DNA of 64,000 bases from a virus: positions 1-64,000 of IMG/VR virus record IMGVR_UViG_3300042937_000753. One strand, 5' to 3'. Below the pieces are notes generated by a model. It ran no database searches and had not been told where the DNA came from. It saw only the letters and a list, made by a program, of their open reading frames with translations. The stretch's first letter is position 1. The number at the start of each line of letters is the position of its first letter. Positions 4,896 to 46,481 of this stretch are shown here, piece by piece. Position numbers and translations under genes: made by a program.

Positions 4896-7800
4896 ATGAA
4901 AAAGTATATTATAACTAGCATTCCTCAAAATAAAAAACTAAACACTTATGCTAGAGGTGGTGAACCCGGAGATAAATATTTCAAGTATCAGAATACTCAG
5001 TACAAAAAAGATCCTCAAGGTAACTGGTATAAATGGAATGGTAAGAGTTGGAGTGCAGCTGGTTATGGTGACAGTGCTTATGATTTAGATCAACACATTA
5101 GTCTTCAAGACTGGGAACAAGCTGGAAGATTCCAAGCAGATGATGCTAACTGGTCAAATGATAAACCAAAAGCAACTACATCTAATTATGAAACTGAAAG
5201 AAACAAAGTTCTAAATAGTCCTTTAGCAACTACACAACAAAAAATTAAAGCAACACAGGCTCCCTTAAAGAGTAATGTTGACTTGAATAAAAAGCTTGTA
5301 GAACAAAAACAGCAAGAAGATTATTTAGCTGAGCAAAATAAGCTGAGAGAACTTCAAGAAGAACAGAGAAGAAAAGAAGAGGAAGAAGCAAGATTGTTAA
5401 ATCCTAATTTTTATAATTCAGAAACCTTGCCTGCTGTTGCTAGGCAATCCGGAGCTCTTCTTACTGAGAAAGAAGAGGATGACTTTGAAGCTCATAAGAA
5501 AGACTTAGGTCAAAAATATGAATACCTTGCAAAGGATCAGTTAGACAATAATTATGTTCGTTATAAAAGTGAATATAAAAATAATGCAAAAGCTACATTT
5601 CAAAATTTAGAGTGGGATCAAGCAGATAAACTAGCAACATTAGCAACTCAATATAATACTAATGTATCTGATGCAGACATTAGAGAACAGTTTCCAAAGG
5701 CCACTGACAAAGAGTTATCTCAATATAAAGACTTTATCAATAGTTCAAGTCGTGACCTAACTGATCAACTTCTTGGTTATGCTCATTCAGTAGATTTAAC
5801 TAAAGCTTTAAAAAAAACACATTGGAATAGCGGTCCTAATAATGATCAAGTAAAAGCTCTGGATCCAAATGATCCTAATCACATTGAGTTGTCTGGTAGA
5901 ATGCCAGGAACAGTAGGAGAATGGGGAACTAGAATAGCTGATGTTATTGCTAATCCACTTGATGCTATTCATTATGGTATGAGTCCAACAGAGGAGATGC
6001 CAATGAATATGTATGAGTATGAGAAAGCAAAACAACAAATTGGTTTTGAAGATGGTGCAGATTTAAATGCAGTTAATTCAGGTTTAGATTTTGCTTCATG
6101 GTTTCATCCAGTAGGTATGTATGCTCAAGGTATGAAAATGATTCAACCTACTGGTGAATCACTAGTTAAATTTGCACAAGATCCAAGTTGGGGTGGAGCT
6201 GGTAATGCAGCTTTAAATATTGGTATGAATGCATTAGCATTTTATGGCGCAAAAAGCCCTTTTAAATTTCTTGCAGAAAATTCTGCAGAATTAATGGCAG
6301 CACAAAAAGCTGAAATGTATGACTTTGGTTCAAAACTTAATAAATTTAACCGTGAAACTTATACAGGGCCTCAATATTATTCAGAGCAACCTTTACAAAA
6401 GTTTCTTCCTTTAGGACCTTCTAACGCACCTATTAGCGGAACAGTTCTTAAGCCAGGTCCAAACTTATTACCAACAATAAGTCAACCACATGTTGTAACT
6501 GAATCTCCCTTAACTACAATGACACCCGCTGTAGAAAAAAGAGGAACAACTCCTTTATTAGATACAAACATTTCATTGTACAGGCAACAACCTAAAGGAT
6601 ATACTAATAACTATACAGGCCCAGATGATCCAGGATTAATTGAGCATGAAGGATGGGGTAAAATAGGAGATCCAGATTATCAAGCACCTGCAATATTTCC
6701 ATATAGTACAGTTGGTAAGTGGTGGGATTCCAATGCAAGTAGAATGGCAGATACTGGTGTATCTCCAAATACTCAGATAAATTTAGCTAATAATCCACAG
6801 CAAGAGGTTGAAATTTTAAAAGTAGATATACCTTTTTCAGAAGCTTCTAAATTTGCAGCATCTAAAAATCCAGAAGCAGCTCCTTGGGCAAAACAAGATA
6901 CAGAATATATATTACCGGACAAATATAAAGAAGCAGCAGAGTCAACTCCCTTTTTAAATAAACCAGCTTCTTCTATAGATGATGTTGCAATTAATTTAGA
7001 ATCTCAAATAGCAAATTTAAAACAACAAGAAGTTTTAAATGAAGAATCTAGAAAAGTATTATGGGCGGACTATAAGGCAGGTAAGATAACAGGAGAAGAA
7101 TATAATGTTGGTGCAAAAAAATTGAACCCAAACGGGTTTGATAATCCAAGATATGAACTTGAAAAACAATTAAGAGAACATAAAGTTAAACAAGATATTA
7201 GTAATACTCCACAACAAAATATATTACAATCTGAAGAACAATTAGGTAAAAATATATCTGATGGCGGTACAAATAATAAGGGTGTATTTGAATTAGGAGA
7301 TAATTATGTAGCTAGACTAAGTGCGCATGGATATGATGATGCAAGTAGATTAGTCACTTATGCTGATAAAATTAAATCACCAAGAACAGGAAAAACATTA
7401 CAAGTTAAAGAAATAGATGGTAAAGTATATCAAGTTCAAAATAAAGTAACAGGTACTCCTATAACACAGTTATCTGAAACTGAATTACAAAATGTTCCAA
7501 AAAAACACATTGATAATTTTTGGAAAGATAAAGCTGAGTTAGATGGTTTAGGTTTATCCATAGATATAAGTGGTGGTAAATCTAATATATTTTATGATCC
7601 TAAAAAAGGATTTCAAATTATTGATTTAGGTATTGGAGAAAGTTCAGCTAATGAAGTAATTGCTGAAACTTATAAAGGACTTAAATTACCAAGTTCTGTA
7701 AAACCAGTTAAATCTAAATATAATATATCAGGGGCAACGGATCCTGTAACAGGTGATGCAAAAAAACAATTTCTTAAAGATTTACAAGAAGATGGTGATT

Positions 7801-10800
7801 ACAATTTATTTAAAGAGAATGCTAAAATAAAAGATCCTCAAACGGGAGCTTGGCAATCAAGTTTTGGTGTACCTAATGTTCAAGATGATTTTTTTAAAGG
7901 TCAAGGTTTATCTGAAGAAAATTCACTGAGTGGTATATCAGGAGCAACCGATCCTATAACAGGTGATGTAATAAACTTTTCTAAAGATGACAATCAAATT
8001 GTAAGTGATATTATAAATGATGTTAGAGAAAGAAAGATAGGTTTATGGCAAACACCTGAAGGACAAAGCAGATTACAAAAGATGATTGACAATACACCAT
8101 CTTTAAAAGGCCAAACTCCAGAATCAATGATTGAAGGTGTTGCTTCAATGACCAATTTAAATAATATATATGCTAGTAAATTAACAGCTAAAGAAAGTAT
8201 AGAATTACAAATGCTTAAGGTAGATTCATTACATGACCAAGGCTTAATTACAGATACAGATTACTTTAATCAGTCAGCAGCTCTTGATGAGGAACTTAAA
8301 ACTGTTGAATTAAGTATAGCTGAATCTGAAGAAACGTTGAATAAAAATTATGGTTTTTATTCAGCAGAATCAAACACTATGGGGATTCAACCAGGAGCTT
8401 GGAAGAATGAAGATATTGCTAAAATTGGTTCACATGAATTTGGTCATATTCTAGGTTCGTTTGGTAGAGAAGGAAAAGTAGGAACAACTTATTTAGATGA
8501 TAAGTTAAAAACATTAAAGTTATTACCTGATTCAGCAGAGCAACTAAAAATAGAATTTCCAAATGAAGCTGGTTCTAAATTATATACCACAGCCTATAAT
8601 GTAATGGGTGAGGGTAGAGATAACTATCAATCAAAAACTAAAAAGTATTTTGAGGAAGGTTCCGGTGGAACAGAAAGAGTTCCTATGGTTTCAGAAGTAA
8701 GAGAAGACATGCTAGATAAAGGAATTATTAAATCAGAATATGATAAGATAACTCCAAAAATGTTAAAGGATCATTATAAAGATTACAAAAAAACAAGAGG
8801 TGAAAAGTATCCTTTAAGAATATATGATGTAATTAAAAATGACTCTGAGAACTTCAACATTATGAGTGAGGTTCTTAATGCTCTTCCTATGATTTCTGTA
8901 GCTGCAACAGTATATGATCAGCTGGATGGTAATGATGATAATTCTGTAACTGAAGCAAGTATGCTTGGTCTTATTGGACTTATTGGAAAAAAACCTGGTA
9001 CATTTAAAATGCCTAAGAGACTTCAAGGTATAGTAAATGACTTTAAAAAGTATGGTAATGGTGCTTTGACTGGATTAAGAGAGTTGGATGTAAGATATAT
9101 TAAAAAAGAAACACAAAAACTTTTGGATGAATTTGCCAAAACAGATGTTGACTTAGGATATATATATGGTAAACCAGGTCTTTATCAGGAACAAGGAAAA
9201 TTAGAAGGTCTTATTAATACTAGAAATGATAAGTTTAAAAACTTTTTTAGAGACAGAGAACTTGTAGTTCAAGGTCTTGATCCGAAAAGTTCTTTAGCAA
9301 AGTATCTTTTTCCAGAAGCAGAAGCACGGGTAAAATTAAAACAATTTGATGTAGATCAGTATAACAAAGCAGCAGATGTGTTTAAAGTAACACCAGAAGG
9401 ATTAGAATCAAATAAACCTTCTGTGTTTGAAGGAGTAACAACTACCGGTGAAAAAACAATAACAGACTTAAGTACAGGTGAAAAAGTAAAAGCTGAAGTA
9501 AAACTCCCGGGTGCTAGAGAAGAATATAAAGTTGTTGATGGAGATCTTGTAAAAACAGATACTAGTATAAATACTCCAATTATTTCTACAGAGTATGTAA
9601 CAGCTTTAAAAAACTCAAGGAATGATGTTGAAACTAAAATACCAGGAGCAAAAGTATTTGGGTCTAGTGTTCTTGTTACTGAAGCTGGTATGCCACATAT
9701 CACAGGAGATATTGATGTATTAATTTCTCAGTCTGATTATAATAAAAATGTAAAAAACAATTTTCCTTTTGTACAAGATTATGGTCCTGCAAAACAACAT
9801 TCTGTATATAAAGACTATGGTCAAGAAGGAGTTTTAGACTTTAATATAATTCACGAAGATGCTAATGGAAAAGTAATACCATATTACAATCCTGATATAC
9901 CTGACAAGACTCCAACAGAAATAGAATTATTTAGACAGTTTTATCCTGATAAATTTCAAGAAGCTTCTGCTAAAGCAGCTACTACAGGAAAACCTTTAGA
10001 GATAAATATGTCATCAAAAGAATTTATGGCAGGTATTGATCCTCAAGTAAAAACTGTAATTGATTCATATGAAACATCACCATTCAATAAATGGGGATTA
10101 TATAATGCTAATAAAGAAAAACATATCTTAAGACCTGATGTTTTAATTGCTTATGGAAAGCCTGAAGTAGTAGCTAAAGGACAAGAAGCTTATATTAAAT
10201 CAATTGTTGGTCATAAAGGTAATTTAGGACATCAGTTTTCAGAACAAGCTTTGAGTGATGTAAATAAAAATGTTGAGGCTTTAGTAGCTATGAATTTTAA
10301 AGGTGATAATGTATTACAAGTAGCCCAAGATCCAAAAAGAATGCAATTAGCAATAAATGACTACTATATAAATAACACAGTATTCTCTAGAGAGATAAGT
10401 GAATATAGTTTACCAGGTCGTAAATATAAAGAGGATATTATAAAAACAGCTTTAACAGAATGGTTCCCAGGTAAAGGAGCAAGTTATAACGGTATTGGAT
10501 TAAACACTGTACAAAAAGGAAATCCAAATCATATTATGGCAACTGATAACCCAATTATTGGGCATAGGCAAATAGGTTTAAAATTGGATACAAATGATCC
10601 TGTATCTTATGTTAATTCAATTGTAAGAGGTACAAGTGGTAATTATGTTTTTACACCTGAAGAATTTAAATTTATTGAAGAGCTTGCTGATAAGTATATA
10701 CCAGAAGTACGTTCCCAAATGCCATCAAATTTTAAAGCAAGAGATATTTTAAATTTACAACCTAACCTGCCATTTACAAATAAACCTAAAGAATTCTTAG

Positions 10801-11777
10801 ATGAACTTTCACAAAAAACAGGTATTAGAGCAATTAGAAAAGATGAAGACTACGGAGGTTATGGGATTGCTAATGCCTCATATGCATCTCTATTAGGAAA
10901 GTTTGATGAAACTGTAGATGCTATGATGTATTCATTAAAAAAATATCATGCTTCTCCTAAAACAGCAAATGAAAGAAAAAAAGCCTTTGATAAACAAGAA
11001 TCAAAACAAAGTACTGCTGAACGACCACCTAAAATAGAAACAGTTAAAGACTTTAAAAAGTTATATGGTGTTTTAAATGGTGGACTTGCTAGTGCTGAAG
11101 CAAGACTTGTTAATTATACAGATCAACTTGCAGCATTAAATTCTTATAAAGATAATTTGATTAGCAAAATGAGTGATAAAAATAGTATTTATTTAAAAGA
11201 AGTAAATACTAAAATAGAGACTGTAACAAAAAGAAGAAAAGAGATTGTAGAACAAAAAGAGTATTTAGATAAAAAACTAACTAAGGCAAGAGATTTATAT
11301 AAGGGATTAGGTTATGGTGTTTTAGCTATAGCAGGAGTGGGTGTAGGTGTAGCCGGATTAAATTATGCTGAAACAATAACTAAACGTCAGAAGGATAAGA
11401 TAAAAGAAGCCATAAAAAGAAATGAAGAACTAAAAAACAGAGGTATAAAGCCTGAGTTTTTACATGAATATTTACCTGATGTGGTTACAGATTACATAAG
11501 AAAAAACCCTTCGGCAAAACATTGGCCAACAGGTGAAAAAATAGAAGTAACTTCTGATAGTAATATAGTAAGGCCAATGTCAACTACATTGAAAAAAGGA
11601 AATGTAGTATGGGATATGAAATACCGAGACATGGATACTAAATTAAAAACATATCAAAAGAATCTATTAAAACTAAATAAAAAGAGTTTAGGTGGTGAAA
11701 ATGAAATGGAACTTGAGTTAACTCAAAAAGAAATAGATGATTTAGTTTCTAGAGGCTATGTAGTTATTCAGAAATAA
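4896..11777 (+). CDS. Giant multidomain virion cargo protein: kinase-like, HExxH and nucleotidyltransferase-like motifs
   Basis: 2293 residues, starting two bases after the upstream stop. The N-terminus (MKKYIITSIP..., then YARGGE) resembles that of the gene at 15548. Residues about 100-170 are Gln/Glu/Lys-rich and coiled-coil-like. Around residues 805-915 a kinase-like pattern appears: IDISGGKSN (D890) followed by IIDLG (D910), like a catalytic loop plus metal-binding loop. HEFGH at 1180-1184 is an HExxH zinc-peptidase signature. A nucleotidyltransferase-type motif starts with GSS at 1589, with D1605 and D1607 (GDIDV) and a likely third acid D1648 (LDFNI). A coiled coil at about 2060-2135 precedes a Gly/Val-rich hydrophobic, membrane-like segment near 2138-2158. 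The C-terminus shares the GG...LTxxEI...RGY tail. Probably packaged and ejected with the genome. The enzymatic assignments are motif-level inference. Confidence 0.8.
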   Translation: MKKYIITSIPQNKKLNTYARGGEPGDKYFKYQNTQYKKDPQGNWYKWNGKSWSAAGYGDSAYDLDQHISLQDWEQAGRFQADDANWSNDKPKATTSNYETERNKVLNSPLATTQQKIKATQAPLKSNVDLNKKLVEQKQQEDYLAEQNKLRELQEEQRRKEEEEARLLNPNFYNSETLPAVARQSGALLTEKEEDDFEAHKKDLGQKYEYLAKDQLDNNYVRYKSEYKNNAKATFQNLEWDQADKLATLATQYNTNVSDADIREQFPKATDKELSQYKDFINSSSRDLTDQLLGYAHSVDLTKALKKTHWNSGPNNDQVKALDPNDPNHIELSGRMPGTVGEWGTRIADVIANPLDAIHYGMSPTEEMPMNMYEYEKAKQQIGFEDGADLNAVNSGLDFASWFHPVGMYAQGMKMIQPTGESLVKFAQDPSWGGAGNAALNIGMNALAFYGAKSPFKFLAENSAELMAAQKAEMYDFGSKLNKFNRETYTGPQYYSEQPLQKFLPLGPSNAPISGTVLKPGPNLLPTISQPHVVTESPLTTMTPAVEKRGTTPLLDTNISLYRQQPKGYTNNYTGPDDPGLIEHEGWGKIGDPDYQAPAIFPYSTVGKWWDSNASRMADTGVSPNTQINLANNPQQEVEILKVDIPFSEASKFAASKNPEAAPWAKQDTEYILPDKYKEAAESTPFLNKPASSIDDVAINLESQIANLKQQEVLNEESRKVLWADYKAGKITGEEYNVGAKKLNPNGFDNPRYELEKQLREHKVKQDISNTPQQNILQSEEQLGKNISDGGTNNKGVFELGDNYVARLSAHGYDDASRLVTYADKIKSPRTGKTLQVKEIDGKVYQVQNKVTGTPITQLSETELQNVPKKHIDNFWKDKAELDGLGLSIDISGGKSNIFYDPKKGFQIIDLGIGESSANEVIAETYKGLKLPSSVKPVKSKYNISGATDPVTGDAKKQFLKDLQEDGDYNLFKENAKIKDPQTGAWQSSFGVPNVQDDFFKGQGLSEENSLSGISGATDPITGDVINFSKDDNQIVSDIINDVRERKIGLWQTPEGQSRLQKMIDNTPSLKGQTPESMIEGVASMTNLNNIYASKLTAKESIELQMLKVDSLHDQGLITDTDYFNQSAALDEELKTVELSIAESEETLNKNYGFYSAESNTMGIQPGAWKNEDIAKIGSHEFGHILGSFGREGKVGTTYLDDKLKTLKLLPDSAEQLKIEFPNEAGSKLYTTAYNVMGEGRDNYQSKTKKYFEEGSGGTERVPMVSEVREDMLDKGIIKSEYDKITPKMLKDHYKDYKKTRGEKYPLRIYDVIKNDSENFNIMSEVLNALPMISVAATVYDQLDGNDDNSVTEASMLGLIGLIGKKPGTFKMPKRLQGIVNDFKKYGNGALTGLRELDVRYIKKETQKLLDEFAKTDVDLGYIYGKPGLYQEQGKLEGLINTRNDKFKNFFRDRELVVQGLDPKSSLAKYLFPEAEARVKLKQFDVDQYNKAADVFKVTPEGLESNKPSVFEGVTTTGEKTITDLSTGEKVKAEVKLPGAREEYKVVDGDLVKTDTSINTPIISTEYVTALKNSRNDVETKIPGAKVFGSSVLVTEAGMPHITGDIDVLISQSDYNKNVKNNFPFVQDYGPAKQHSVYKDYGQEGVLDFNIIHEDANGKVIPYYNPDIPDKTPTEIELFRQFYPDKFQEASAKAATTGKPLEINMSSKEFMAGIDPQVKTVIDSYETSPFNKWGLYNANKEKHILRPDVLIAYGKPEVVAKGQEAYIKSIVGHKGNLGHQFSEQALSDVNKNVEALVAMNFKGDNVLQVAQDPKRMQLAINDYYINNTVFSREISEYSLPGRKYKEDIIKTALTEWFPGKGASYNGIGLNTVQKGNPNHIMATDNPIIGHRQIGLKLDTNDPVSYVNSIVRGTSGNYVFTPEEFKFIEELADKYIPEVRSQMPSNFKARDILNLQPNLPFTNKPKEFLDELSQKTGIRAIRKDEDYGGYGIANASYASLLGKFDETVDAMMYSLKKYHASPKTANERKKAFDKQESKQSTAERPPKIETVKDFKKLYGVLNGGLASAEARLVNYTDQLAALNSYKDNLISKMSDKNSIYLKEVNTKIETVTKRRKEIVEQKEYLDKKLTKARDLYKGLGYGVLAIAGVGVGVAGLNYAETITKRQKDKIKEAIKRNEELKNRGIKPEFLHEYLPDVVTDYIRKNPSAKHWPTGEKIEVTSDSNIVRPMSTTLKKGNVVWDMKYRDMDTKLKTYQKNLLKLNKKSLGGENEMELELTQKEIDDLVSRGYVVIQK
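7725..7967 (+). repeat. Two 33-base in-frame direct repeats (ISGATDPxTGD)
   Basis: Copies at 7725-7757 and 7935-7967 encode ISGATDPVTGD and ISGATDPITGD (residues 944-954 and 1014-1024). They match at 30 of 33 bases and are exactly 210 bases apart. They lie between the kinase-like and HExxH segments of the 2293-aa protein and look like linker duplications. Confidence 0.8.
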
Positions 11778-11836
11778 ACTTATTATGTTTATCCATTAAA
11801 CTAAAAATTAGTATATTAATATATAGAACATGTTTT
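11778..11836 (+). promoter_or_regulatory. A/T-rich gap inside the structural operon, possible promoter or processing site
   Basis: One of only two gaps longer than 10 bases in the + strand operon. It contains a short palindrome (ACTAA-aaa-TTAGT) and the word TATGTTTA, one base off the Bacteroidota -7 element TAnnTTTG. No clear -33 element or terminator is seen. The other gap (18023-18080) shares TAAACT followed by an A/T-rich run. Function is a guess. Confidence 0.25.
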
Positions 11837-14800
11837 ATGAAAAAAATAAAAGTAAGAATATACAAAGATCCAAATGGTCAAGGAGAGTATGTAAACAAAA
11901 CTGCTAACTTTTTGAAAAAGGCTCGTAGTGGAATGCAAGTTGATAGTCTTGAACTAGAAGAAGAAATATTAAATCAACTAGCTATTACACAAGATGTTGA
12001 TGTAATTGCAAGTAAGCTAGAGGATGATTATGGACTAGATTATTTTGAAGCATTAGATCAAATTGAAAATGTAGTTGGTGGTCTTTATAGACAAGATGTA
12101 ACTGCAACAAAAAATGAAATACTAGATCAAGATCCAAATGTTGATCAACCAGAAGTTATTAAACCAAAATTATATAATACCGATGAACCATGGGTATCAG
12201 ATGATAATAGTGGTTGGGATGATTTTGGTGAAGAAACAGAAGATGCTGAAGGTACATCAGAATATGATGATTTAGCACAAGAAGATGAACAAGCATTATC
12301 TTTACAAAAAAAAGGAGGAACCGTGAGTAAAAAGAAATTTGTTAAAACAGTTGTAAGAGGTCTTAGAAAAGCTGCAGAAGGAATGCAACAAGAGCAATCT
12401 AGTGAAGCATCTCCTATGGATATTCCAATAGGTGGTAGAGCAAGTCATATAGCTAGTTTTAGAAGAGGTTTAAAAGATTTAGGTAATGAGTTTTATGCTA
12501 AGAAAATTTATGATGAAACTCAAAAATTAAAAAATGAAACAGAACAGTTACCAACTGTACAACCAGGAATGATGAGAGCACAATACGGAATGCAAATGGA
12601 AAAAGATCCTGAAGATTATTCACATCATCTTTTAGCTTTAGCAGAAGCTAATTCAAATATATTTGATGAACCTATGAATCAAATACACGGAGCAGGTTTT
12701 GAAAACATTCCTGAAGCTAGAAGAGGTAGAGAACAAAGACAAGCTGATAGACAACAAAAAAATATGTCTAAAGATTGGAATAATGCATTTGGAGATATGG
12801 CTGCGGGATATTTTGGTGTACCAGGGATGCCTAATTATTTACAAGTAGTTAATCCACAAATGGTTAATCCACAAGCTAATGTAACTTCTCAAAATCAAGG
12901 AAACCCAACAGGTCCATTTATAGATGTTAACTATAAAAAAGGTCCTTGGTGGTCAGGTAAAAGAGAATGGTCTGCTAAAGGAATTCCTGCAGAAATGTTA
13001 ATGGGTGCTGGAAGAGGTAATGGTGTTATGCCAGGTCATGGTTATATGCCTAGCAATTCATGGTCAAATAGTTCATCATGGAACACACAAAGAAATTTTC
13101 CTGGTGAAATCATAAGAAGTAAATCTAGAACTATTAATGCTGCGGCAGATCCTGCAAAGAATAGTCGTACAAGTTCTACAACAACTACAAGTAATAGTTC
13201 AAGCAGTAACATATCAACTGTTTTAAATAATAATTCTGAAGAAAATAACACTGCACAGAATCTAGAAGAAAATGAGTATGAGAGAAGTTTTATGGATAAA
13301 ACATTGGATCCAGAAAACAAAATGCATGGTACTCAGTTTTCTTTTATGAATGTTCAAGATCCGGAAGAGTTAAGACAAGGAAACTTTGATAACTATTATT
13401 TTACAGATCCTAAAACAGGTGTGACTTATATGTCTAATAATTTTGGTACTGAGATGGATGCTGGAAAAGAATCATGGAATCCGGTTACATTACCTCCAGA
13501 GCAAATGGAAAGATTAGGACATCCAATTCAACATTGGGATTCAGATCCTAATAATCCAGATGGAGCTCCTATATATAATCCTGAAAAAAGCAGATTCATA
13601 AAACCAAATAATTGGTTACAATATGAGTATGATCAAAATAAAGAGATGGGTCAACCTTTTGATGAAGATAAATATTATCAAACTAATTATCCTCAAGAAT
13701 ATAACCAACTCATTAAAGCATATGGTGGGCCGGTGAGTAATCCACAGATGGATGCCAATGGTAATCTACAAAGATTTGTTTACGGAGGTAATGATATGGG
13801 TGTATCACCAATTGTAGCATATGATAATAATGATATTAACTCTAAAGACATAGATGATCCATTCATGTTTAGAAAAGGTGGTTTATATAAGTATGAAGGA
13901 GAAGAGAATAGTCAAGTTGATTATACTGTTACAAATCCTCCTGCGGCTACTCCACCAAACCAGTATCAGACTCCTGCATTTAATAGATACAATTCTAATG
14001 CAACATCTCAAAGTAACTTTGCTGCATTTAATGAAATGAAAAAGAGAGGTTTAGTAACAGGTAATTATAATCCTGCTCAATCATATGATATGAGTAATAC
14101 TGGTACAACTACAAAAACATCTGGTAGTTCTGGTATAAAAGCAAATTCACCAGCTCCAGGTTGGACATGGGAAGAATGGAATGCGTTACCAGAATCAGCA
14201 AGAACTAAGATTGGTCAAAATTTACAAGGACAAAATACCCAAAATCAAGGTACTACAACTCAAGGTGGTTATCCTACAGCACCTTCAATAAAACAACAGT
14301 TGTTAGATAAGTTTTCTCCATTTAAGAGAAATCAACAAACTGGAAAATTTTATGACTTTATGTGGGCATCTCAACAAGGTGCTCCAACTACTGCAGATGG
14401 TAAACCATATCAAGTACCAGGTGGAACACAACCTGGTCAAGGACAACCTGGTACTGGACAACCAGGGCAAGGACAAGGTGCACCAGGACAACCAAATAAA
14501 GCAGGTTATTACTATGACTATAAGCTTGAAAAAGGGCCTTGGTGGAAAGGAAATAAACAAAGTATGTCTATGACTGGTAAATGGATAGACCCTAACAATC
14601 CTAATGCAGGTACCTCAGCAAATACAGGACAATTTAATAATGGTCAAGGACCTACAGTTAATGCTGGTAATACTAATCAACCTACTACAAATACAGGTGT
14701 TCAACCTGATGGTACTAGATTTGTAAAAGGTATGTCAATTGGTGATAATCAAATGATAAAAACCAATACAGATGTTAAGGGTAATAATATGGGTATTGAT

Positions 14801-15544: not shown

Positions 15545-15547
15545 GAC

Positions 15548-18022: not shown

Positions 18023-18080
18023 TAAACTTAATAGGTTTAATAAACTTAAAAAATTTTAATAGTTTTATAACAAAAATATT
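18023..18080 (+). promoter_or_regulatory. A/T-rich gap with direct and inverted TAAACTTA words
   Basis: The 58-base gap contains AATAAACTTAATAGGTTTA (from 18021), an imperfect palindrome with TAAAC/GTTTA arms, then a second AATAAACTTA. TAGGTTTA and TAGTTTTA are each one base off the Bacteroidota -7 consensus TAnnTTTG. Possible internal promoter or operator; no expression evidence. Confidence 0.28.
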
Positions 18081-27744: not shown

Positions 27745-27746
27745 AA

Positions 27747-33700: not shown

Positions 33701-36700
33701 TGATAAAGAAGAGTTTCATAAGAGAAATGCTGGTTTAGGTTCTGGAGGTAAAAGTTTTAGATCCGATATGAGAGCAAGGATGTATATAAACAGTCCTATG
33801 TTTGAAAGATTATATGCTGATAAAGAAGGTTATAAACTTAATGCATACAACGGAACTTTAACAACAGCTATTATTAAAGAACTTACTATTGATAAGTCTG
33901 TATATAAAGATGAATACTATGATGAGCATGTAAAAGAATATACGGCTAGATATATTAAGGCTGGTAAACCTAAAGCTGAAGCTGAAAGACTTGCTAAAGA
34001 CTTGGCTGATACTGTATTAGCAGATTATTCTAATATGAAAATTGCTGATGGTCAAGGATGGTTAAATTTTGAAGCATACAGAATGCTTAAAAACCTTGAA
34101 AGTTCTTGGTCAGCACAACAAGAAGACTTATATAAAAAGGTAATTGCAGGAGAAATATTAAATGCTTCTGATATAAAAGAGTTCTTTCCTCCTTATAAAT
34201 TACAGTATTTTGGACCTATTAAAACTAAAGGTCTTCCAATGACATCCTTTCATAAGTTTTCATTAGCTCCTTTAATCCCAACAGTCCATACTGCAAATAT
34301 GCAACTTGGTCAAATACATGATATGATGCTTAATCAAAATGTTGATTATGTATTGATGGAAACTGGTGAGAAAATTGGACACCTTGGAAACGGTGATGAG
34401 ATACTTGATAAAAATGGTAATGTAGATGCCTCAGTAAACTTTACTAAAAATGTAATCTATGCTGAGTTCTTAAAAAATCAAACTGAAGTTAACTCTAAGT
34501 TTAAAGGTAAGTCTATATTCTCTACTCAGTTAAGAAAATTAATTCTTGAAGGTTTATATGAACAAGGAGAAGTTAGTAAAGATGTAAAACATCTAGTAGA
34601 TAACTATGTAAACAGAGTAGGTGAGTATACTGAACTACTTAAGAATGAATTGATTGACCAACTTGGGTTTGCAGAAAATGAGAATGGTGAGTTTGTTCCT
34701 GTAAACAAAGACAGTATTGCAAAACTTGCATTAATGATCAGAGAAAATCTTACAAGAGATGATGTATATAGTGATAAACTAATTGACATTATTGATGTAA
34801 CTGAGGAAGGAGATTTAAGATTTGACTTATCTCTACATCCGGAGGCTGTGAAGATTGAAAAACTTTTGTTGTCATTGATTAATAAAAGAATCATAAAACA
34901 AAAAGTTAAAGGAGAACCTCTAGTACAAAAGTCTTCAGGTTTCTATGATGGATTAATTGAATTTTCAGTTGATCTTGATAAGATGAATCCGGAAGCAAGA
35001 GATGCTGCAGTTAAAAAATACATGGGGTCTAACTTTTTACCTACATATCATAAAGGTACAGATGGTACAACAACAGCAATGAAAGTTGCTATCTCACTTC
35101 AGGGAGATTATGAAAACCTTCTTAACCTAGAATATAAAGGAGAACCTATCTCTACTTTAGATAGACTAAATGAAGCTATCAAAGATGATGAATGGTTAGA
35201 TGCTGATAATGAAGCTAACAGAAAAGCAACAACAAAAGATCCTATATATGATATAGCTTTTTCTGAATTAAAAAGTACAAAAGGAGACACTAAACTTTTT
35301 ATTTTAGAATCTGATCTTACTTCAGAAATTAAAGCTAATCTTATACTAGATGATAAAAATGGAAAACGAGTTAAAGGAAGTACTTATCAAGGAATTAAAA
35401 TATTAGGAGACTATTATTCACATAAAACTTTAAAGTCTTCAGATGGTGATGCATTAGATATAATTGTTGTTAAATCTAAAGAAGATGCTCAAAAACAATA
35501 TGATGCTTATATAAAAGGTGGAGCAAAACAATTTACAGGAATTGGAAATGTTATTTTTTCTAATATAGATACATCAGTTAAGAGTACTAATAGACAAGCA
35601 ATAACTCTTGTAGGGGTTAGGATTCCGGTTCAGGGTCTAAACTCTATGGAGTTTATGGAAGTATATCACTTCTTACCACCTCAAGCTGGAAACATAATTA
35701 TTCCACCTGCTGAGATAGTTGCTAAATCAGGAGCTGACTTTGATATTGATAAGTTATCAATCTTTATGAATAATATTGATGGAGATGGTAATGTTAGAAT
35801 GCCAATGTTTGACAATGCTAAAGATTTCTATGAAGCTATTAAAGATCCATCTAAATATGAGATGAGTAAAGAACAAATGTATAGCTTACAAAAATCTGGT
35901 CTTGAGAATCAATTAATTAATGATATTAGAAGTATTCTTGAGTTACCACAAAACTATGTGTCACTTACAACTCCAAATGGAACTTACTTAGTTAAACCTA
36001 CGGCAGATATGTTATCTGAATATGTATCAGATTATAATCCTTTTCAAAGTTTAATGTCTGATAAAAATAAACTAAGTGCTCCAGATAAAAATGGAAAACA
36101 AAAATCAGTAATCAGTCCTACTAGAATATTTGAAGCAGGTTATAACTTATATAAACATGAATCAAATGTGGTTGGTAAGAAGACATTAGGGCTTGGTGCA
36201 ATTGAAAATACCTTTAATGTAATATTTAATTCATTAGGTGCTTCAATGCCTGCAGTATATAGACATTCTGATGAAGAAGTAGATAGAGTTTCATTCTTAG
36301 GTTTGAGACATAACACAATGAAAAAAGATGGTCAAGATGTTATTTCTCTTTCTCATCAATTTGATACAGATGGTAATAATAAAGTAGCAGATATTATCAA
36401 CCAGTTAATAAACGGTTGGGTGGATGTTGAGAAGGATGCATGGGTATTCTTTGTACAAGGTAATTATGAAGTTGCTCCCACATTACTTTACTTATTAAAG
36501 GCAGGTGTACCATTTAAAGAAGCAGTATATTTTGTTTCTCAACCTCTTGTAAGAGAGTATGTTAAAGAGAGAAGGCTTGCAAATAGTACATTTGCTGAAC
36601 CTTTAAGAAAAGATCCCGGCTTCCAAGGAGTTAACTTTAAAGCAGCAAGTAATATAATTGCTAAATACTTTAAAAACTTTATTCCTGATGAGCAGTCAAG

Positions 36701-38900: not shown

Positions 38901-38903
38901 AAG

Positions 38904-41900
38904 ATGTTTTGTGAATCTAAATCTACAGTATTAAAAGATCTTAAGGAAAAAGGAATACTTGGTGAATACAATGATGTACTTAATACAATTGAGTTTGAAA
39001 AATTTAATAAAGAATTTACCAGATTCATTGAGTTAAAATATAATCTAAACACTGGAGGTGAGCTTGCCTTTAGCACATATGAAACACAAACACGTTTTCC
39101 ATATAGTTCTAGATACTATAGAGATGATATACAAACAACCATATATGCTCAAACTAATGAACCATTGTTTGAAGCTCTTGATGAGGAAAGGATAAAAGCT
39201 GATATCAAAAATGAAGTAAAAGACCGTGATGTTTTAAATGAACCTGAAGCTGAATATCCAGAAGATGATTTAATGAACCCAATGTTCATGAGAGAGCCTT
39301 CTTATCTTCAACATAGATTTAACAGTGAAACTAAAAAAGCAATGTTATCTTTTATAGAAGGTCTCAATATTAAAGTTGTAGATGGTCTTGATGAAATTAT
39401 CCCTAGTAGCAGAAGAACATGGATAGATAAAAATGGTAATATGCAAACTAGAGAGGATCCTTTAGCTGCATTTGATCTTCTACAAAAGTTTTTGGCTTTG
39501 AAAGAAAATATATCTGATAAAAATGTTTCTATGCAGACAGCCAATATTATTTATAGTTTTCTTGGTAAAAAATCTAAATTAGGTATTGAACTTTGGAAAG
39601 GTATAAATAGTTGGAGTAAGTATCAAGAAGTCTATGATAAGTATAATAATAAAAAACTTAGAGGACAAGAAGAACAGGTTGTAGAACAACCTATGCAATA
39701 TGGTGAGAATAGTTTAGCTGAAGATAAAATAAAAGAAGTCTATGAATATGATCCAGCTAGATTTAATGCATGGGCACATAAACAAACTATAATTGAGTTT
39801 CTTTCTAGCATGCTTATTATTGGAATTGACAATAATTATATTGGTAAAAAAAGAACTAATCCTGATATTGCTAAAGAATATTTTGAAAGCCTTGGTTATA
39901 AAGATAAGTATGCAAAAGATTGGATTACCCGTATGTTTAATAGATTCATGAATTGGATTAAAGAACATATATTAAATAATAAAGCAATTACAATTTATAA
40001 AGAAGCTGAGTTGAGAGATACTGTACTTGATATTGTTGATGATGTTTATAAAAAGAACTATATCAAGTTTATTAGAAGTTATTATGAAAACCCTACAACT
40101 GGAAAATTCTTTAATGCTAAGGGTCAGGAGTTTGAACAAAAATTTTATGATGAAAGTCTTAAAAGAGATCCCTTTGCAAAAGAAATAGTTGATAAATTAT
40201 TCAATGCTCCATATGAATATTTTTTAAGTGGCTCATTAGTTCTTAGAAAATACGGTAGAGTTATAAGAGCTTTAAGTGAAGACTTACATGATATTGATGG
40301 TGTAATAAGTCTACAACAATTTGAAAGTGAAAAAAATGCTACTCAGTTTTTAAAATGGATTGAAGAAAGAGGTGTTCCTTTAAGTAGAGAAAGAACTACT
40401 AAAAACTCTAAGCAGTTTATAAAAGAACTGATGCCTTATTTAGAAGGACAATCTTGGTATGAAGATTTGAAAAAACAATTTCCTACTTGGACTTTTAAAG
40501 CTGCTTTCATTGGAAAAGATCATAAGAAAGGTGAATCAGTTACTATTTCTGGATATGTTGAACATCCTACAGAAACAGTTCTAGTTCAGAATGCAGATGG
40601 AAGTGCTGCTACAGATTTCTTTAATGCTGAAGATAATGGTAAAACTCTTCCTAAGAGATATGTACTTGATTTCTTTTTGAGAACACAAGAGGGTAATTAC
40701 CCAGAGGTGTTTGATCATTATTATAAAGACTGGAAACAAATCTTTGAAGCTAAGATCAACATGGGCCGTGGAAAAGACTTGGCTGATTTAATATATTTTC
40801 AACCATTTAGAGAAGATAAATACAAGTATACTAATAAAGGTTTTAGATACTTTACATTTGCTGATGATGTAATTACAAATATGCCTGACATAACTGAATT
40901 TAAAGTTGATGAGCAAGCTATAAAAAATCAAAGATCTAAAGAAGCAGCTAATGCATTAGGTCAAAAAATTGCACAAGCTTTAGGAGTACAATATATGTAC
41001 ATAACAGATGCTCAAGCAAAACAGATTCTGGAGTCTAGAAAAAAAACATACAATGGTGAACCAGCTTTTTTCTTTGGAGGAACAGTTTATATTGTTGGTG
41101 ATAATGTAAACTTTGACACTGTACTCCATGAATTATCACATCCTTTATTAAGAGCAATTTTTAAAGAAAATCCAAAACTCTTTAATAACTTGTATGAAGC
41201 ATTAAAAGCTACTACAGAAGGGGATATAATAATCCAGCATGTTAAAGATAATTATCCAGAGCTTAAAGAAGAAAGCCCTCTATTTAAAGAGGAAGCTCTT
41301 GCTTATGCACTACAAAGAAAAGCAGCAAATAAAGTAACTAATCAAATTGAGTCATTAGGTTTTGAAGGATTTATTGGAAAGTTACTTGATGCATTAAGAA
41401 ATATGCTTAAAAAAATCTTTGGATCTAAAACTAGAGTATCTGAGATTGATGTAAATACCTCAATTGATAAGCTTGCAGATATGCTCTTAGAAGATTCATT
41501 TGAATATGAAACTGATTTTGTTACCAATGATGATCTTGTTGCATATGCCAGGGAGATAAAAGAAATGGCTGAAAAGCTTACTAAAGATGTCAAAGCTGAA
41601 AAAATACAAGAGGGTATCAATGAAATGTATGCTACCACTCAATTAATATATGAGAAAGCTATAAACTTTAGAACTAGATCTCCGCAGTATCAAAGAATGT
41701 TAAAAGAAGCATTGTTTGTAAAAGGAGAAACAAATGAATTACTTCCTAAAATTAAAAGAATTTTGTTTGGATATCAGACAGTGTCGGGTCAAGAAAAATT
41801 TACTATTGATGATGCTATCAAAAATGCAGTAGAAGCAGAAAGAATGAGAAATGAAGATCTTATTAATAGAGCCCGCAGTTTTGTAAACACAGTTGGAATT

Positions 41901-44900
41901 GTAAATAATATTGCTAAAAATATCTATCAAGATCTTGATGCTATGGATAGAAGCAATTCATTTAATTCTAGAGATGCTATAGCCTTATTATTCTTATATA
42001 GAAGTTCAATTAGATCATACAATGATATGTTTAATTCATTTGATGAAATGATTGCTAATGAAGAAGGTTTTGATATAAATCAGACTAATGATATTATTGA
42101 CCTTATTAATGAGGCTAAGAATAACTTAATGAGATCTGATAAAAAAATCCGTGACATATATAAAGCAAACAGTGTTGATTTCTATGTAGAGATAACAGGT
42201 TATATGAATGATTTCTTAAAGGAAGAGCTTGGTAAGAACTTAAGAAATGCATTAACAGATAAGCTTTCTGAAAAAGAAATAGATGACTTGTACAATATTG
42301 CAATTACTCAAAAATTAGATGACCAAACTGCTGAAGAATTATATACCAATCTAGAAAAGAAAGGTGTTGAATCTAAATATATCAAAAAATTTATTGATGA
42401 TTATAATGCATTCTTGGTTAATCAAGATAAAATTACTGATGGTTTGTCAGGTAAACTAAGAGATGTAAGTTGGTTTAATAGATTCTTTGAGTCATATACA
42501 TCTAGTAATGATCCTATAGTAGGTGGATTAGCTATTTTTATCAATGATCAAAAAACAGAAGCTTCTCAAAGGGCCCTGGATAAGTCATATAAATTTAGAA
42601 AAGAACTTGAACCTCTCTTACAAAAAGTAGGTTATACAACTTTAAAAACCAGACAGTTAACTGATATGTTAATGTTTAAGGATAAACTATTATATATAGA
42701 TCCTAAAACAAAAAAACCTATTGAAAAAGAAGTATTTACATTCTTAAATGAGTTTGGTAATGGTTGGAGATATAAACAAGATTTGCTTGAATATCAAGTT
42801 GATGAAGCTTTAGCATCAGAAGATGATGATAAAATTAGAACTGCTACTAATGCATTAAAACAGTTTAAAAAAGATTACATGTGGGATGATTACATTCCAG
42901 AATTTTATGAAAAAGATGCTGTCTTTGAAAAATATGGTGAACTTGGTAAAATGGCATGGCTTTCTAGGAAGATGGCTCTTGACAAGTTTAATAATGAATC
43001 CAATGAGATTAGTGATGAGCTTGAAAGATTTCAAAAATATTCTACTCTTCAAGAGTTATGGAGAGAATATCAAATGCTTTCTTCATTAAAATATGCAGAC
43101 GGAACTAGTAAAGTAGATGACCCTGCTACTGGTGTTTATGATTTGTCAATTGCAAAAATACTTCTTGAACATAAAGAATCTACTAAAGATTACTATGAAT
43201 TTGCTCCAAGACCTGGTTCATTACAAACATCATTTAATCAGTTTTTAAGTTTAGCTGAGTCAAATGGTGAAGATTTAGTTAAGGCTAAAGATGAATGGAT
43301 CAAACAAAACATTAGAATTGCATATACTCAAGAGTTTTATGATTCTAGAAAAGAATTAACAGCTAAACTTAAACAAATTCAAGACAAGGTAAATTCTGTT
43401 ATTGGTTCTGAGTTTGATATTAGTAATGCATACAATGAGATTTATAATTTAATGTTTGCATATAAAGATCAACAAGGGCAACCAATTCCATCTGAATTAG
43501 GCGTAGATAAAATGAAGATGATTAAAGAACTTAATCAAAAAATCATTAACTATAAAGCTGCTTTTGATACTAAAACTGGTTTATCAAATGAAGATGCTGA
43601 AGAACTTGAGCTATATATTGCAATCAATAAGAAAAATCCTGAAAGGTTAACTCCAGAGCAAAAACTAAGATATAGAGAGTTGTTAATGCAACAAACTAAA
43701 ACAGGTTTGTCTCTTGCTGAAGTTGCTACTATGCAAAGTGTTTATGCTGAATTATCTTCTCTTACACAAAAAGTTTCTACTGAATACTATGTAGATTCAA
43801 TAAATGAACATTTACAAAGATTGAATGTAGCCACACTTACTGTAGATCAAGTAGACAATTTTATTAATAGTGATGAGATGAAAAATCTTCTTGCTAGTGA
43901 CGGTAAATTTGTAGATTGGTTTGTAACTAACCATGTATCTAGAAAAGTAAAAAATAGAAAAACCCGTAAAATGGAGCTTAAATATGAAAGATCCATGGCA
44001 AACTCTATTTCTATTCCTAAGAATGAAAAGTATTATGAAAAAACCACCCTCTTTAATGAGTTAACTGGTAAAGATGAAACATTCCGTGGTCTACCAAATG
44101 CAAGACACTCTACATATAAAGTAAAAGATAAATACAGAACAGGTTATGATCCTACTACAGGAGAAGTAAAACTAGAAGTGGGAGTTCATATTGATAATAA
44201 AGGACAACCCTTACCAAGAGCTTTTAAAGTAGGAGATAAGAACAGTGCTCTTAATGATGATTTCATCAATAAAGATTACATGAGATTAAAGGAACAACCA
44301 AACAGTCCTAGATTTCAGTTACTTGAATTAATGAAGAAAGCACACCTATCATTCCAAGAAGATAAATCTAATAAGTCTAAGCTTTATTTAGACATGCCTA
44401 GATATGTTCTTAGAGATAATTTATCTAGATTACAAGCTGGTAAATTTGGTGAAAGATACAATCAGATTAAAAAAGGTATAACTCAGTCATTAAAAGATAG
44501 CTTTGGACAAGCCGTTGATGAGAATGAACTTGAGCATAACTATGAGAGAGATAATAATCTTGAAGAATATAGAATGGTTAATACTGATTTAAATTCTGAA
44601 GAAGTTTCTTATATTCCTGTTTCTGGTATGTATAATCTTGAGACAGATAATACTGATCCAGATGTTATTCGTGGAATGTTCAAATACTTACTTTCTCTTG
44701 AGACTCAAAGTAAACTTCATGAAACATTACCTCTTGTTAATTCAATCTTGGAAACATTAGCAGATCCTGCTAATGCACCTAAGACTCCAAATACCTATAG
44801 TAAAACCATTAAGAAAATAAAAGGTAAACTTCAGCATACTGTAAAACCAGGAGCAAGTAATAATAGACTTGGTCAAGTAAGATCTCTTATTGAAAGAGAA

Positions 44901-46481
44901 TACCATGGTAAACAATTCAGCGGGGAAGGAAGCTCTATCTATTTAGATAAATTCATGGGTCAATTACAAAAACTTTCTGCAAGAGCTTCATTAGCTGTTA
45001 ATATTTCTTCGGATTTAAAAAATAGATACGGTCAGATTGTACAGAACATGCTTGAATCTGCTGGAGGTGAGTTTATTACACCAAAAGATTTAGCTCAAGC
45101 TAGACTATGGGCTGCAACAACAATGATAGAATGGACATCAAAAAGTGTTTACACTAAAGGAGTACCTGCATTATCATCTCAAATCATAGAGATGTTTGAC
45201 TCAGCATTTAAATTCAAAGATGACTTTGGTAGATCTGTTTCTAGAAACATGGGTAAAGATATGATGAATGGTGAGTGGATGTATAACATCAGAAAGAATC
45301 TGGAGATGGAGGCTGCCTTACAATTATTTGGGGCATTTCTTAATGGACAAAAAGTAGAACAGAAACTTTCTAATGGTAAAACAATCACTGTTAATTACAA
45401 AGATGCATGGCAAGTTAATAAAGATACTGGTATAGCTGAATTAAAACCCGGTATTGATCCAGCATGGAGTAATAGAACAATTACACATGATTTTCAAAGA
45501 GGTCAAACTTTGGAGGATATAGCAGCAATGTATGGTGTTACTGTAGATGAAATTAAAGAAAGAAATAAAATTGTAAATGTTTTAGAATTTGAAGATAATC
45601 AAGAAATAATTATTGCTAAATCAGAAAAATTCAAACAATTTAGAAATAAATTTCAAGGTGTATCCCATAAATTATATGGTTCATATGATGACTTTGCACA
45701 AGCAGAGGGTAATCTATACTTACCATATAGAATGTTTACTTTCATGAGAAAGTGGTTTGTCCCTATGCTTACAAATAGATGGGGTGCTCGTGTTGAAATT
45801 GAAGATGGTAAATTCTGGTCTCCCAAACTCAATAAAAGATATGATTGGATGACTGGTAAAACTAATCTTGGTTTCTATCTTAATGCCTATATTGGAATGA
45901 AAGAGTTAATTAAGAGTAAAGGAAAGTATTGGTCTTATATGCCTGAAGATCAAAAGAGAGATCTAATGAAAACATTAGCTGAATCATTATTTATTATTAC
46001 ATCAGCTCTCTTAGCTTCAATGTTATTTGGATATGATCCTGATGATAAAGAAAGATTTAAAAAATTAGAAGCTAGATCTGGAGCTCTTGGTACTGATGAT
46101 TTTAAAACTTGGGGTTTCATACAAAATCATATGTTGATCTTATTATTAGGTACACAAATGGAATCTTCAGCTTTTGTTCCGCTTCCAACAATGTTTGGAG
46201 TAAATCTTGGAGCAGATGACTATATTAAAATTGCTACAACTACCACATCTTCATTTGGAAATACCGTAGGGTTATATGCAAAAATGATGGAGGATGTATT
46301 TAAATTAATGACTTTTAATGATAAAGCTTATTATAGTAGAAAAGAAGGTGAATATTGGTGGCAACAAAAGGATGTACCTAAAATATATGGTAGATTACTT
46401 AAATCTGTTGGTATCACTGGTTCAACAGGAGATGTAACTCAATCACTTGAAGGTCTTGAAAATGCAGGTAAACTTAAATAA
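38904..46481 (+). CDS. Giant virion protein with nucleotidyltransferase-like, HExxH and LysM motifs, 2525 aa
   Basis: Starts three bases after the RNA polymerase stop, so translation is probably coupled. A nucleotidyltransferase-type site has GSL at about 443, D463 and D465 (HDIDGV) and a plausible third acid D589 (YVLDFFL). HELSH at 742-746 is an HExxH motif followed by EEALAYALQR, arranged like the HExxH segment of the preceding protein. A long helical region follows (about 900-1900). A LysM-like repeat lies at about 2194-2241 (GQTLEDIAAMYGVTVDEI ... NQEIIIA). A hydrophobic segment (FIITSALLASMLFG) near 2360 could be membrane-inserting. crAss-like phages have large proteins flanking the catalytic polymerase chain, so this may be a polymerase-associated or cell-entry protein. 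No RNA polymerase catalytic motif was found here. Confidence 0.78.
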   Translation: MFCESKSTVLKDLKEKGILGEYNDVLNTIEFEKFNKEFTRFIELKYNLNTGGELAFSTYETQTRFPYSSRYYRDDIQTTIYAQTNEPLFEALDEERIKADIKNEVKDRDVLNEPEAEYPEDDLMNPMFMREPSYLQHRFNSETKKAMLSFIEGLNIKVVDGLDEIIPSSRRTWIDKNGNMQTREDPLAAFDLLQKFLALKENISDKNVSMQTANIIYSFLGKKSKLGIELWKGINSWSKYQEVYDKYNNKKLRGQEEQVVEQPMQYGENSLAEDKIKEVYEYDPARFNAWAHKQTIIEFLSSMLIIGIDNNYIGKKRTNPDIAKEYFESLGYKDKYAKDWITRMFNRFMNWIKEHILNNKAITIYKEAELRDTVLDIVDDVYKKNYIKFIRSYYENPTTGKFFNAKGQEFEQKFYDESLKRDPFAKEIVDKLFNAPYEYFLSGSLVLRKYGRVIRALSEDLHDIDGVISLQQFESEKNATQFLKWIEERGVPLSRERTTKNSKQFIKELMPYLEGQSWYEDLKKQFPTWTFKAAFIGKDHKKGESVTISGYVEHPTETVLVQNADGSAATDFFNAEDNGKTLPKRYVLDFFLRTQEGNYPEVFDHYYKDWKQIFEAKINMGRGKDLADLIYFQPFREDKYKYTNKGFRYFTFADDVITNMPDITEFKVDEQAIKNQRSKEAANALGQKIAQALGVQYMYITDAQAKQILESRKKTYNGEPAFFFGGTVYIVGDNVNFDTVLHELSHPLLRAIFKENPKLFNNLYEALKATTEGDIIIQHVKDNYPELKEESPLFKEEALAYALQRKAANKVTNQIESLGFEGFIGKLLDALRNMLKKIFGSKTRVSEIDVNTSIDKLADMLLEDSFEYETDFVTNDDLVAYAREIKEMAEKLTKDVKAEKIQEGINEMYATTQLIYEKAINFRTRSPQYQRMLKEALFVKGETNELLPKIKRILFGYQTVSGQEKFTIDDAIKNAVEAERMRNEDLINRARSFVNTVGIVNNIAKNIYQDLDAMDRSNSFNSRDAIALLFLYRSSIRSYNDMFNSFDEMIANEEGFDINQTNDIIDLINEAKNNLMRSDKKIRDIYKANSVDFYVEITGYMNDFLKEELGKNLRNALTDKLSEKEIDDLYNIAITQKLDDQTAEELYTNLEKKGVESKYIKKFIDDYNAFLVNQDKITDGLSGKLRDVSWFNRFFESYTSSNDPIVGGLAIFINDQKTEASQRALDKSYKFRKELEPLLQKVGYTTLKTRQLTDMLMFKDKLLYIDPKTKKPIEKEVFTFLNEFGNGWRYKQDLLEYQVDEALASEDDDKIRTATNALKQFKKDYMWDDYIPEFYEKDAVFEKYGELGKMAWLSRKMALDKFNNESNEISDELERFQKYSTLQELWREYQMLSSLKYADGTSKVDDPATGVYDLSIAKILLEHKESTKDYYEFAPRPGSLQTSFNQFLSLAESNGEDLVKAKDEWIKQNIRIAYTQEFYDSRKELTAKLKQIQDKVNSVIGSEFDISNAYNEIYNLMFAYKDQQGQPIPSELGVDKMKMIKELNQKIINYKAAFDTKTGLSNEDAEELELYIAINKKNPERLTPEQKLRYRELLMQQTKTGLSLAEVATMQSVYAELSSLTQKVSTEYYVDSINEHLQRLNVATLTVDQVDNFINSDEMKNLLASDGKFVDWFVTNHVSRKVKNRKTRKMELKYERSMANSISIPKNEKYYEKTTLFNELTGKDETFRGLPNARHSTYKVKDKYRTGYDPTTGEVKLEVGVHIDNKGQPLPRAFKVGDKNSALNDDFINKDYMRLKEQPNSPRFQLLELMKKAHLSFQEDKSNKSKLYLDMPRYVLRDNLSRLQAGKFGERYNQIKKGITQSLKDSFGQAVDENELEHNYERDNNLEEYRMVNTDLNSEEVSYIPVSGMYNLETDNTDPDVIRGMFKYLLSLETQSKLHETLPLVNSILETLADPANAPKTPNTYSKTIKKIKGKLQHTVKPGASNNRLGQVRSLIEREYHGKQFSGEGSSIYLDKFMGQLQKLSARASLAVNISSDLKNRYGQIVQNMLESAGGEFITPKDLAQARLWAATTMIEWTSKSVYTKGVPALSSQIIEMFDSAFKFKDDFGRSVSRNMGKDMMNGEWMYNIRKNLEMEAALQLFGAFLNGQKVEQKLSNGKTITVNYKDAWQVNKDTGIAELKPGIDPAWSNRTITHDFQRGQTLEDIAAMYGVTVDEIKERNKIVNVLEFEDNQEIIIAKSEKFKQFRNKFQGVSHKLYGSYDDFAQAEGNLYLPYRMFTFMRKWFVPMLTNRWGARVEIEDGKFWSPKLNKRYDWMTGKTNLGFYLNAYIGMKELIKSKGKYWSYMPEDQKRDLMKTLAESLFIITSALLASMLFGYDPDDKERFKKLEARSGALGTDDFKTWGFIQNHMLILLLGTQMESSAFVPLPTMFGVNLGADDYIKIATTTTSSFGNTVGLYAKMMEDVFKLMTFNDKAYYSRKEGEYWWQQKDVPKIYGRLLKSVGITGSTGDVTQSLEGLENAGKLK

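Follow-up and report, generated by a model that had tools for sequence, protein, structure and literature searches.

The giant genes that follow the muzzle gene of an uncultured virus probably encode the virion cargo of a distant crAss-like phage: a packaged RNA polymerase complex accompanied by modular, swappable, ejected effectors of the polyvalent-protein type. The window (that is, the entire stretch of DNA analyzed) comprises the first 64,000 of the 87,482 bases in a virus record, and its left end is cut inside the muzzle gene. What is left of that gene is followed by O1 to O3, which occupy variable cargo slots, by O4 and O5, and then by the transcription block, O6 to O8; genes for DNA polymerase, exonuclease, ATPase and primase follow to the right of the block on the opposite strand, and no tRNA genes were found in the window. 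A first-pass annotation had singled out four giant ORFs (O2, O6, O7 and O8), and they are as it described them, with O6 counted from the ATG at 21379. The genes and domains that enter the argument are as follows:

2..2938 (+), O0, the C-terminal portion of the muzzle protein, truncated where the record begins (Pfam crAss_MUZ, PF25731, E 7e-16, above cut-off)
2938..4893 (+), O1, a cargo-slot protein of 651 aa directly behind the muzzle, with the shared tail
4780..4890 (+), shared C-terminal tail of O1 (hold-out HMM, E 3e-8)
4896..11777 (+), O2, a mosaic cargo-slot protein of 2293 aa, different subsets of whose modules are found in relatives
6992..7679 (+), kinase-like module of O2, aa 699-928 (R807, D890, N897, D910), a recently exchanged block
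7935..9053 (+), HExxH zincin-like module of O2 (H1180, E1181, H1184, E1267), invariant in 5 sequences
9438..10580 (+), nucleotidyltransferase-like module of O2 (G1589-S1590, D1605, D1607, D1648)
11661..11774 (+), shared C-terminal tail of O2 (hold-out HMM, E 2e-4)
11837..15544 (+), O3, a cargo-slot protein of 1235 aa
15437..15538 (+), shared C-terminal tail of O3 (hold-out HMM, E 4e-9)
21379..27744 (+), O6, a gp47-like protein of the RNA polymerase block, 2121 aa (PD region against crAss001 gp47, E 1e-29)
26056..26898 (+), PD-(D/E)XK nuclease domain of O6 (D1664, D1679, K1681; conserved in 22/22; PDDEXK_1)
27747..38900 (+), O7, the RNA polymerase catalytic protein with extra domains, 3717 aa
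29676..30248 (+), SLOG (cpYpsA-like) domain of O7 (cpYpsA in 8/13 relatives; phrog_10774, E 4e-12)
30474..31073 (+), HExxH domain of O7 (H1003, E1004, H1007, E1041/E1042; 26/26; crAss001 gp47, E 1.3e-12)
35235..35585 (+), a 117-aa insertion of unknown kind in O7, shared only with the near-identical G001 among the relatives
35736..35750 (+), DFDID catalytic motif of the RNA polymerase, O7 aa 2664-2668 (DFD[IV]D in 26/26 relatives)
38904..46481 (+), O8, a gp49/g065-like RNA-polymerase-associated protein, 2525 aa
40071..40898 (+), accessory nucleotidyltransferase-like module of O8 (G443-S444, D463, D465, D589)
40872..41573 (+), HExxH zincin domain of O8 (H742, E743, H746, E797; 25/26; DUF4932 in 4/20 relatives)
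45495..45623 (+), LysM domain of O8 (Pfam LysM, E 4.5e-5)

On the evidence of its muzzle gene and of genes in the cargo and polymerase block, the virus is a distant relative of the crAss-like phages. The muzzle is about 27% identical to those of Cellulophaga phages phi17:2 and phi4:1, Flavobacterium phages and the cyanobacterial phage Lbo-JY46; the nearest named muzzles are those of Lightbulbvirus, Flavobacterium and Leptolyngbya phages, the best-scoring one belonging to a Leptolyngbya (cyanobacterial) phage. The polymerase part of O7 is about 25% identical to its counterparts in gut and Cellulophaga crAss-like phages, and single-sequence searches among named phages with O2, O6 and O8 gave no match. 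(A note on the host: Bacteroidota were assumed in the first-pass annotation; the top named relative of the muzzle infects the cyanobacterium Leptolyngbya.) About 30 uncultured relatives were collected; G and L numbers below denote records used for comparison. In about 25 of the relatives, as far as the contigs extend, the order muzzle, variable cargo genes, O4, O5, O6, O7, O8, opposite-strand DNA polymerase is kept; despite this constancy of gene order, module content varies from record to record.

The giant proteins had been described as lying before the RNA polymerase gene; in fact one of them, O7, is itself the polymerase. Its DFDID region matches g066 of phage phi14:2 (E 3.6e-13) and gp50 of crAss001 (E 1.9e-12), and by this sequence signature it is a polymerase of the DFDxD two-barrel type; a single-sequence search of the PDB with the whole protein gave no match. 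The HExxH and LysM regions of O8 match crAss001 gp49 (E 2.6e-6 and 5.8e-7), and the LysM region also matches phi14:2 g065 (E 1.1e-5). The nuclease region of O6 and the HExxH region of O7 both match gp47, which implies that domain boundaries have shifted between proteins. The homologues are proven virion constituents: crAss001 gp45, gp46, gp47, gp49 and gp50 have been detected in virions by mass spectrometry (PMC10172136), and phi14:2 g065 to g070 are annotated from virion proteomics (record notes). Already on record in the literature are the packaging of cargo, the polymerase of the DFDxD type, and the presence of a PD-(D/E)XK domain in a transcription-block protein (PMC10172136, PMC7886860). 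The Crassvirales block (crAss001 gp45-gp50, phi14:2 g065-g070) has the same muzzle, followed by cargo genes and then by giants of the gp47, gp49 and gp50 types. The window differs from it in a single 3717-residue chain that unites the polymerase with HExxH and SLOG domains, and in far larger slot proteins, equipped with enzymatic modules; identity to named phages is only about 25%.

Two other segments of O7 may be mentioned here. The insertion (aa 2497-2613) sits about 50 residues before DFDID, and close by, in a few relatives, there is a different one that is shorter; an inorganic pyrophosphatase domain, suggested by a resemblance, found no match in Pfam, and 117 residues seems too short for an intein. 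A C-terminal domain (window 38280-38897), kept in 20 relatives and weakly like DUF7831, is possibly a second SLOG-like domain.

Kinase-like, nucleotidyltransferase-like, HExxH, PD-(D/E)XK, SLOG and LysM motifs had been read in the giant proteins from the letters alone. These motifs are real, and for each of them apart from the kinase there are relatives or structure predictions in support. The four giant proteins contain exactly the three HExxH motifs that had been counted (at H1180 of O2, H1003 of O7 and H742 of O8); shuffled proteins contain 0.07 on average, and 0 of 2000 shuffles reached 3. The zinc ligands and the downstream Glu are kept in 5/5 sequences for O2, 26/26 for O7 and 25/26 for O8. 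The PD-(D/E)XK residues of O6 are invariant in all 22 sequences, with Pfam PDDEXK_1 matching at E 2e-4, just under its cut-off; the SLOG domain of O7 is common in relatives, short of universal (best cpYpsA match 5e-5); the LysM match of O8 stands above the curated Pfam cut-off. The nucleotidyltransferase signature is present twice, in O2 and O8: as a bare motif it is near chance (P 0.07), and its residues are conserved within families (4/4 and 8/8). When alignments of five domains were searched as profiles against the PDB, nothing rose above chance level except a weak match for PD-(D/E)XK (E 0.066).

Per-domain structure prediction bears out part of the set: the models agree for both nucleotidyltransferases and for the O8 zincin, and that of the O2 kinase region is unusable. 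(The convergence of catalytic residues was judged from their order on the predicted secondary structure.) The AlphaFold model of O8 aa 385-890 has a mean pLDDT of 71, with the nucleotidyltransferase core mostly above 85. In it, a helix bearing the GS motif, a strand bearing DxD and a third Asp on a later strand follow one another in the Pol-beta order, and the HExxH helix is followed by a helix with Glu797. The best PDB match retrieved by Foldseek is anthrax lethal factor, a zincin (probability 0.98 but E 0.046), with Pol-beta-type folds lower in the list; the zincin of the N4 polymerase has been linked to this same fold by Iyer et al. (PMC5512222). Only the nucleotidyltransferase part of the model of O2 aa 785-1895 is good (core mostly at pLDDT 80-90), and its motif residues, like those of O8, lie on Pol-beta-like secondary structure; uridylyltransferase TUT7, an H. 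pylori nucleotidyltransferase and a CCA-adding enzyme take Foldseek ranks 1, 2 and 5 (E 0.1 to 0.9). The HExxH and Glu of the O2 zincin-like module fall on two predicted helices, at low confidence. Foldseek E-values are weak overall (0.05 to 0.9), and the structure matches of O8 and O2 are to be taken as supportive, not conclusive.

The domains divide into core and accessory ones. The PD-(D/E)XK domain of O6, the HExxH domains of O7 and O8, and the LysM region of O8 are present in nearly all relatives; all of the O2 modules (kinase-like, HExxH and nucleotidyltransferase) and the nucleotidyltransferase of O8 come and go. Because the first four belong to the core of the transcription block, entry, processing or transcription are likelier assignments for them than service as optional weapons. 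Even a core domain can be dispensed with: divergent relatives L117 and L118 have lost the HExxH of O8 and kept the nucleotidyltransferase, so that the O8 zincin is not always needed. (L117 also has a PD-(D/E)XK-like domain inside its O8 protein.) In G006, G009, G016 and G018 the place of the O8 nucleotidyltransferase is empty, the sequence running straight through, and in L116 and L120 the domain is encoded as a separate gene; no chromosomal relatives of it were found in genome contigs. Its replacement by an ART was considered, and the signal is too weak (G005, E 0.005 in one genome; G004, E 0.83 in Pfam).

Exchange is evident in O2. G027 shares aa 1-550 and 1023-1386 with O2 and is missing the kinase and nucleotidyltransferase; G022 shares the nucleotidyltransferase and is missing the zincin; G030 shares the zincin only; in G003 and G006, whose proteins have about 850 residues, the shared part is confined to aa 394-452. 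In L126 the O2-type nucleotidyltransferase has an altered DxD. In G015, the direct counterpart of O2, an ART-like stretch (E 1.8e-5, below the Pfam cut-off) replaces the kinase-like module between homologous flanks. There is good evidence, from DNA alignments, that the kinase-like block is a discrete module exchanged recently and without its flanks: it is 85.5% identical over 689 columns to L097, in which it belongs to a cargo protein that is otherwise unrelated, and over part of its length the block is 77.8% identical to L098; blastn detects no similarity of the L097 and L098 loci to the window beyond the block, and an O7 query has no match in the records that carry it (one of 120 kb, the other two fragments). 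Is the block a kinase? This has yet to be established: four sequences have kept a glycine-rich stretch, R/K807, D890, N897 and D910-L, the Lys being Arg in the window, and these motif residues stand without a Pfam or other profile match, in a region of AlphaFold pLDDT mostly below 50. Membership in the Kinase-PolyVal family (PF18762) was tried, and there was no match at E 10 in the window record.

The slots of the relatives extend the repertoire. ART-PolyVal domains are found in those of G011 (3e-14) and G022 (2.6e-9), SET domains in slot proteins of G019, G025, G026 and G029 (about 1e-11 to 1e-9, the G019 match spanning only part of the profile), and a DUF6782 metallopeptidase in that of G028 (1.3e-10); an AlkB-like 2OG-Fe(II) oxygenase lies inside the RNA polymerase protein of G030 (G030:C1:57204-57884, E 9.5e-15). 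In the window no domain family characteristic of polyvalent proteins scored above cut-off. Slot proteins contain 14 HExxH motifs against 0.23 expected, a count that includes homologous copies and so does not represent 14 independent events. These comparisons support the view that accessory modules are swapped among relatives as effectors are. The slot can also be followed into a named phage: g070 of phi14:2, encoded directly behind the muzzle and detected in the virion by mass spectrometry (record notes), contains a pair of HExxH domains with homologues among the relatives' slot zincins (E 1.8e-5 and 3.3e-6). Since O2 of the window has a zincin of another group, the connection concerns the slot and the sort of domain that fills it rather than O2 as such. 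The arrangement is the same in phi17:2, with a 745-aa ORF containing two HExxH motifs. (SET occurs once as a small ORF adjoining O8, G031:C1:15527-15805.)

O1, O2 and O3 have unrelated bodies and similar C-terminal tails of about 35 residues, which end in YQLGDEIDEDTMNELKRLGYTFEEI (O1), MELELTQKEIDDLVSRGYVVIQK (O2) and VYDLTEEEVGKILAAGGQIKFIK (O3), with a consensus near GG-x-ELT-x-x-EI-x-x-Y-x-x-x-GY-x-VE-E. A hold-out HMM constructed from 10 tails of five other records, with the window left out, and run on the 751 ORFs of the remaining records matched 40 of them (including copies from overlapping loci or near-identical records), all cargo-slot ORFs by position and most matching at the extreme C-terminus. 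A profile made from all seeds gave no further significant match in the window record and none in the stretches of crAss001, phi14:2 and cr108_1, and tblastn with one tail copy found no match among named phages. The tail HMM matches the C-terminus of a 675-aa protein of the cultured Leptolyngbya phage Lbo-JY46 that is encoded two genes behind the muzzle (L135 23506-25530, E 5.6e-6); a zincin of the O8 type is present in this phage as well. Several large proteins (G003, G013, G028, G029) have internal tail copies, as if cargo genes had been fused. Our preferred reading of the tail, which we put forward tentatively, is that of a packaging signal that would load unrelated effector bodies into the virions of the whole phage group, leaving modules free to change while ejection is kept; the internal copies would then be leftovers of cargo-gene fusions. 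A chaperone-binding or oligomerization element is an equally open reading.

How might these parts be used? The following scheme takes its cargo steps from crAss001 (PMC10172136) and its module steps from polyvalent proteins (PMC5512222), and in the window phage it is from gene content that we infer packaging of O1-O3, ejection, enzymatic activity, targets and a role for the tail. O6-O8 would constitute the packaged RNA polymerase complex, and O1-O3 would be modular slot proteins, perhaps marked by the shared tail for loading into the particle. The cargo would be synthesized late and then loaded into capsid or tail, to exit after adsorption through the muzzle, either before the DNA or together with it. 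Transcription of early genes would fall to the ejected polymerase; processing, entry or DNA clearing would be aided by the conserved zincin and nuclease domains; and host proteins or nucleotides would be modified, during the first minutes, by the accessory modules (the O2 zincin, the O2 and O8 nucleotidyltransferases, perhaps the kinase-like one). O1-O3 could alternatively be assembly or tail parts. The block had been summed up at first sight as a packaged effector arsenal; an ejected enzyme set is supported, with the qualifications that one member is the RNA polymerase, that part of the set is conserved core rather than optional weapons, and that the kinase is not established.

If the O7 and O8 HExxH domains and the O6 nuclease are conserved core, why should anything in the block be directed at the host? 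One can think of the zincins as self-cleaving or maturation proteases, and of the nuclease and nucleotidyltransferases as acting on phage nucleic acid; self-processing is, in fact, among the roles proposed for such domains in polyvalent proteins. As an account of the whole block this is unlikely, albeit the most serious competitor: swapping of accessory modules for ART, SET and AlkB-like domains is hard to square with maturation enzymes, and the kinase-like block moves alone. It is also conceivable that the modules are degenerate "decoration", that is, structural fillers or binding domains that have kept their fold and lost their activity, as the missing HExxH of L117 and L118, the altered DxD of L126 and the Lys-to-Arg change of the window's kinase-like module might suggest; the catalytic residues are otherwise invariant within families that are only 30-40% identical, and this makes general degeneration quite improbable. 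The last alternative, chance motifs in large proteins of unrelated function, could appeal to the near-chance frequency of the nucleotidyltransferase signature taken by itself and to a kinase without profile support. The HExxH count far above that of shuffled proteins, the conservation, the Pfam matches and the structure models largely refute it for everything but the kinase, and it is scarcely to be credited.

The reading preferred here, a packaged polymerase complex with swappable effectors, has precedents of three kinds. 1) Polyvalent proteins (Iyer et al. 2017, PMC5512222) are giant packaged multidomain proteins with the same mix of zincin peptidases, ARTs, kinases and Pol-beta nucleotidyltransferases, whose modules are exchanged. 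O2 resembles them in uniting HExxH and nucleotidyltransferase modules behind the muzzle, as do the relatives in carrying ART-PolyVal; what differs is that in the window the set is distributed among several proteins next to a two-barrel RNA polymerase, with a C-terminal tail common to the slot proteins. (Crass-like phages and SET domains are unmentioned in the text of PMC5512222.) 2) The virion RNA polymerases of the N4-like phages (Schitoviridae) are likewise giant ejected polymerases fused to a zincin and sometimes to an ART, fusions that are published (PMC5512222); theirs is a single-subunit polymerase, whereas that of the window is of the DFDID two-barrel type. 3) Alt and the internal proteins of phage T4 are also injected host-modifying enzymes with a short peptide for loading, for which the window has a candidate tag. 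The T4 capsid-targeting sequence is N-terminal and is cleaved; the window's tail, by contrast, is C-terminal.

It is known that crAss-like phages eject a polymerase along with cargo proteins, and this cargo has so far been read mostly as channel and transcription parts. If the slots are an exchangeable effector rack, the polyvalent-protein idea extends to these phages, and a defined group of candidate host-takeover enzymes (zincins, nucleotidyltransferases, ART, SET, AlkB-like) comes with it; the shared tail makes it testable how a phage chooses the proteins that it packs. A literature search found no paper joining polyvalent proteins with crAss-like phages (the 2017 crAss family and 2020 polymerase papers lie outside that search, and an earlier report is possible). 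As far as we have seen, what is new is the extent of slot module exchange in this uncultured group, the SET and AlkB-like modules, and the shared tail.

One minor observation concerns the construction of the mosaics. In L126 (a 2230-aa ORF; aa 19, 385, 617 and 1094) and in L098 (a 1437-aa ORF; aa 454, 782 and 1154), glycine-glycine linkers recur before successive modules (K-x-GG-x-L-x-x-AQ-x-G and GGEINQYEDGG are examples); these could be cleavage or junction sites.
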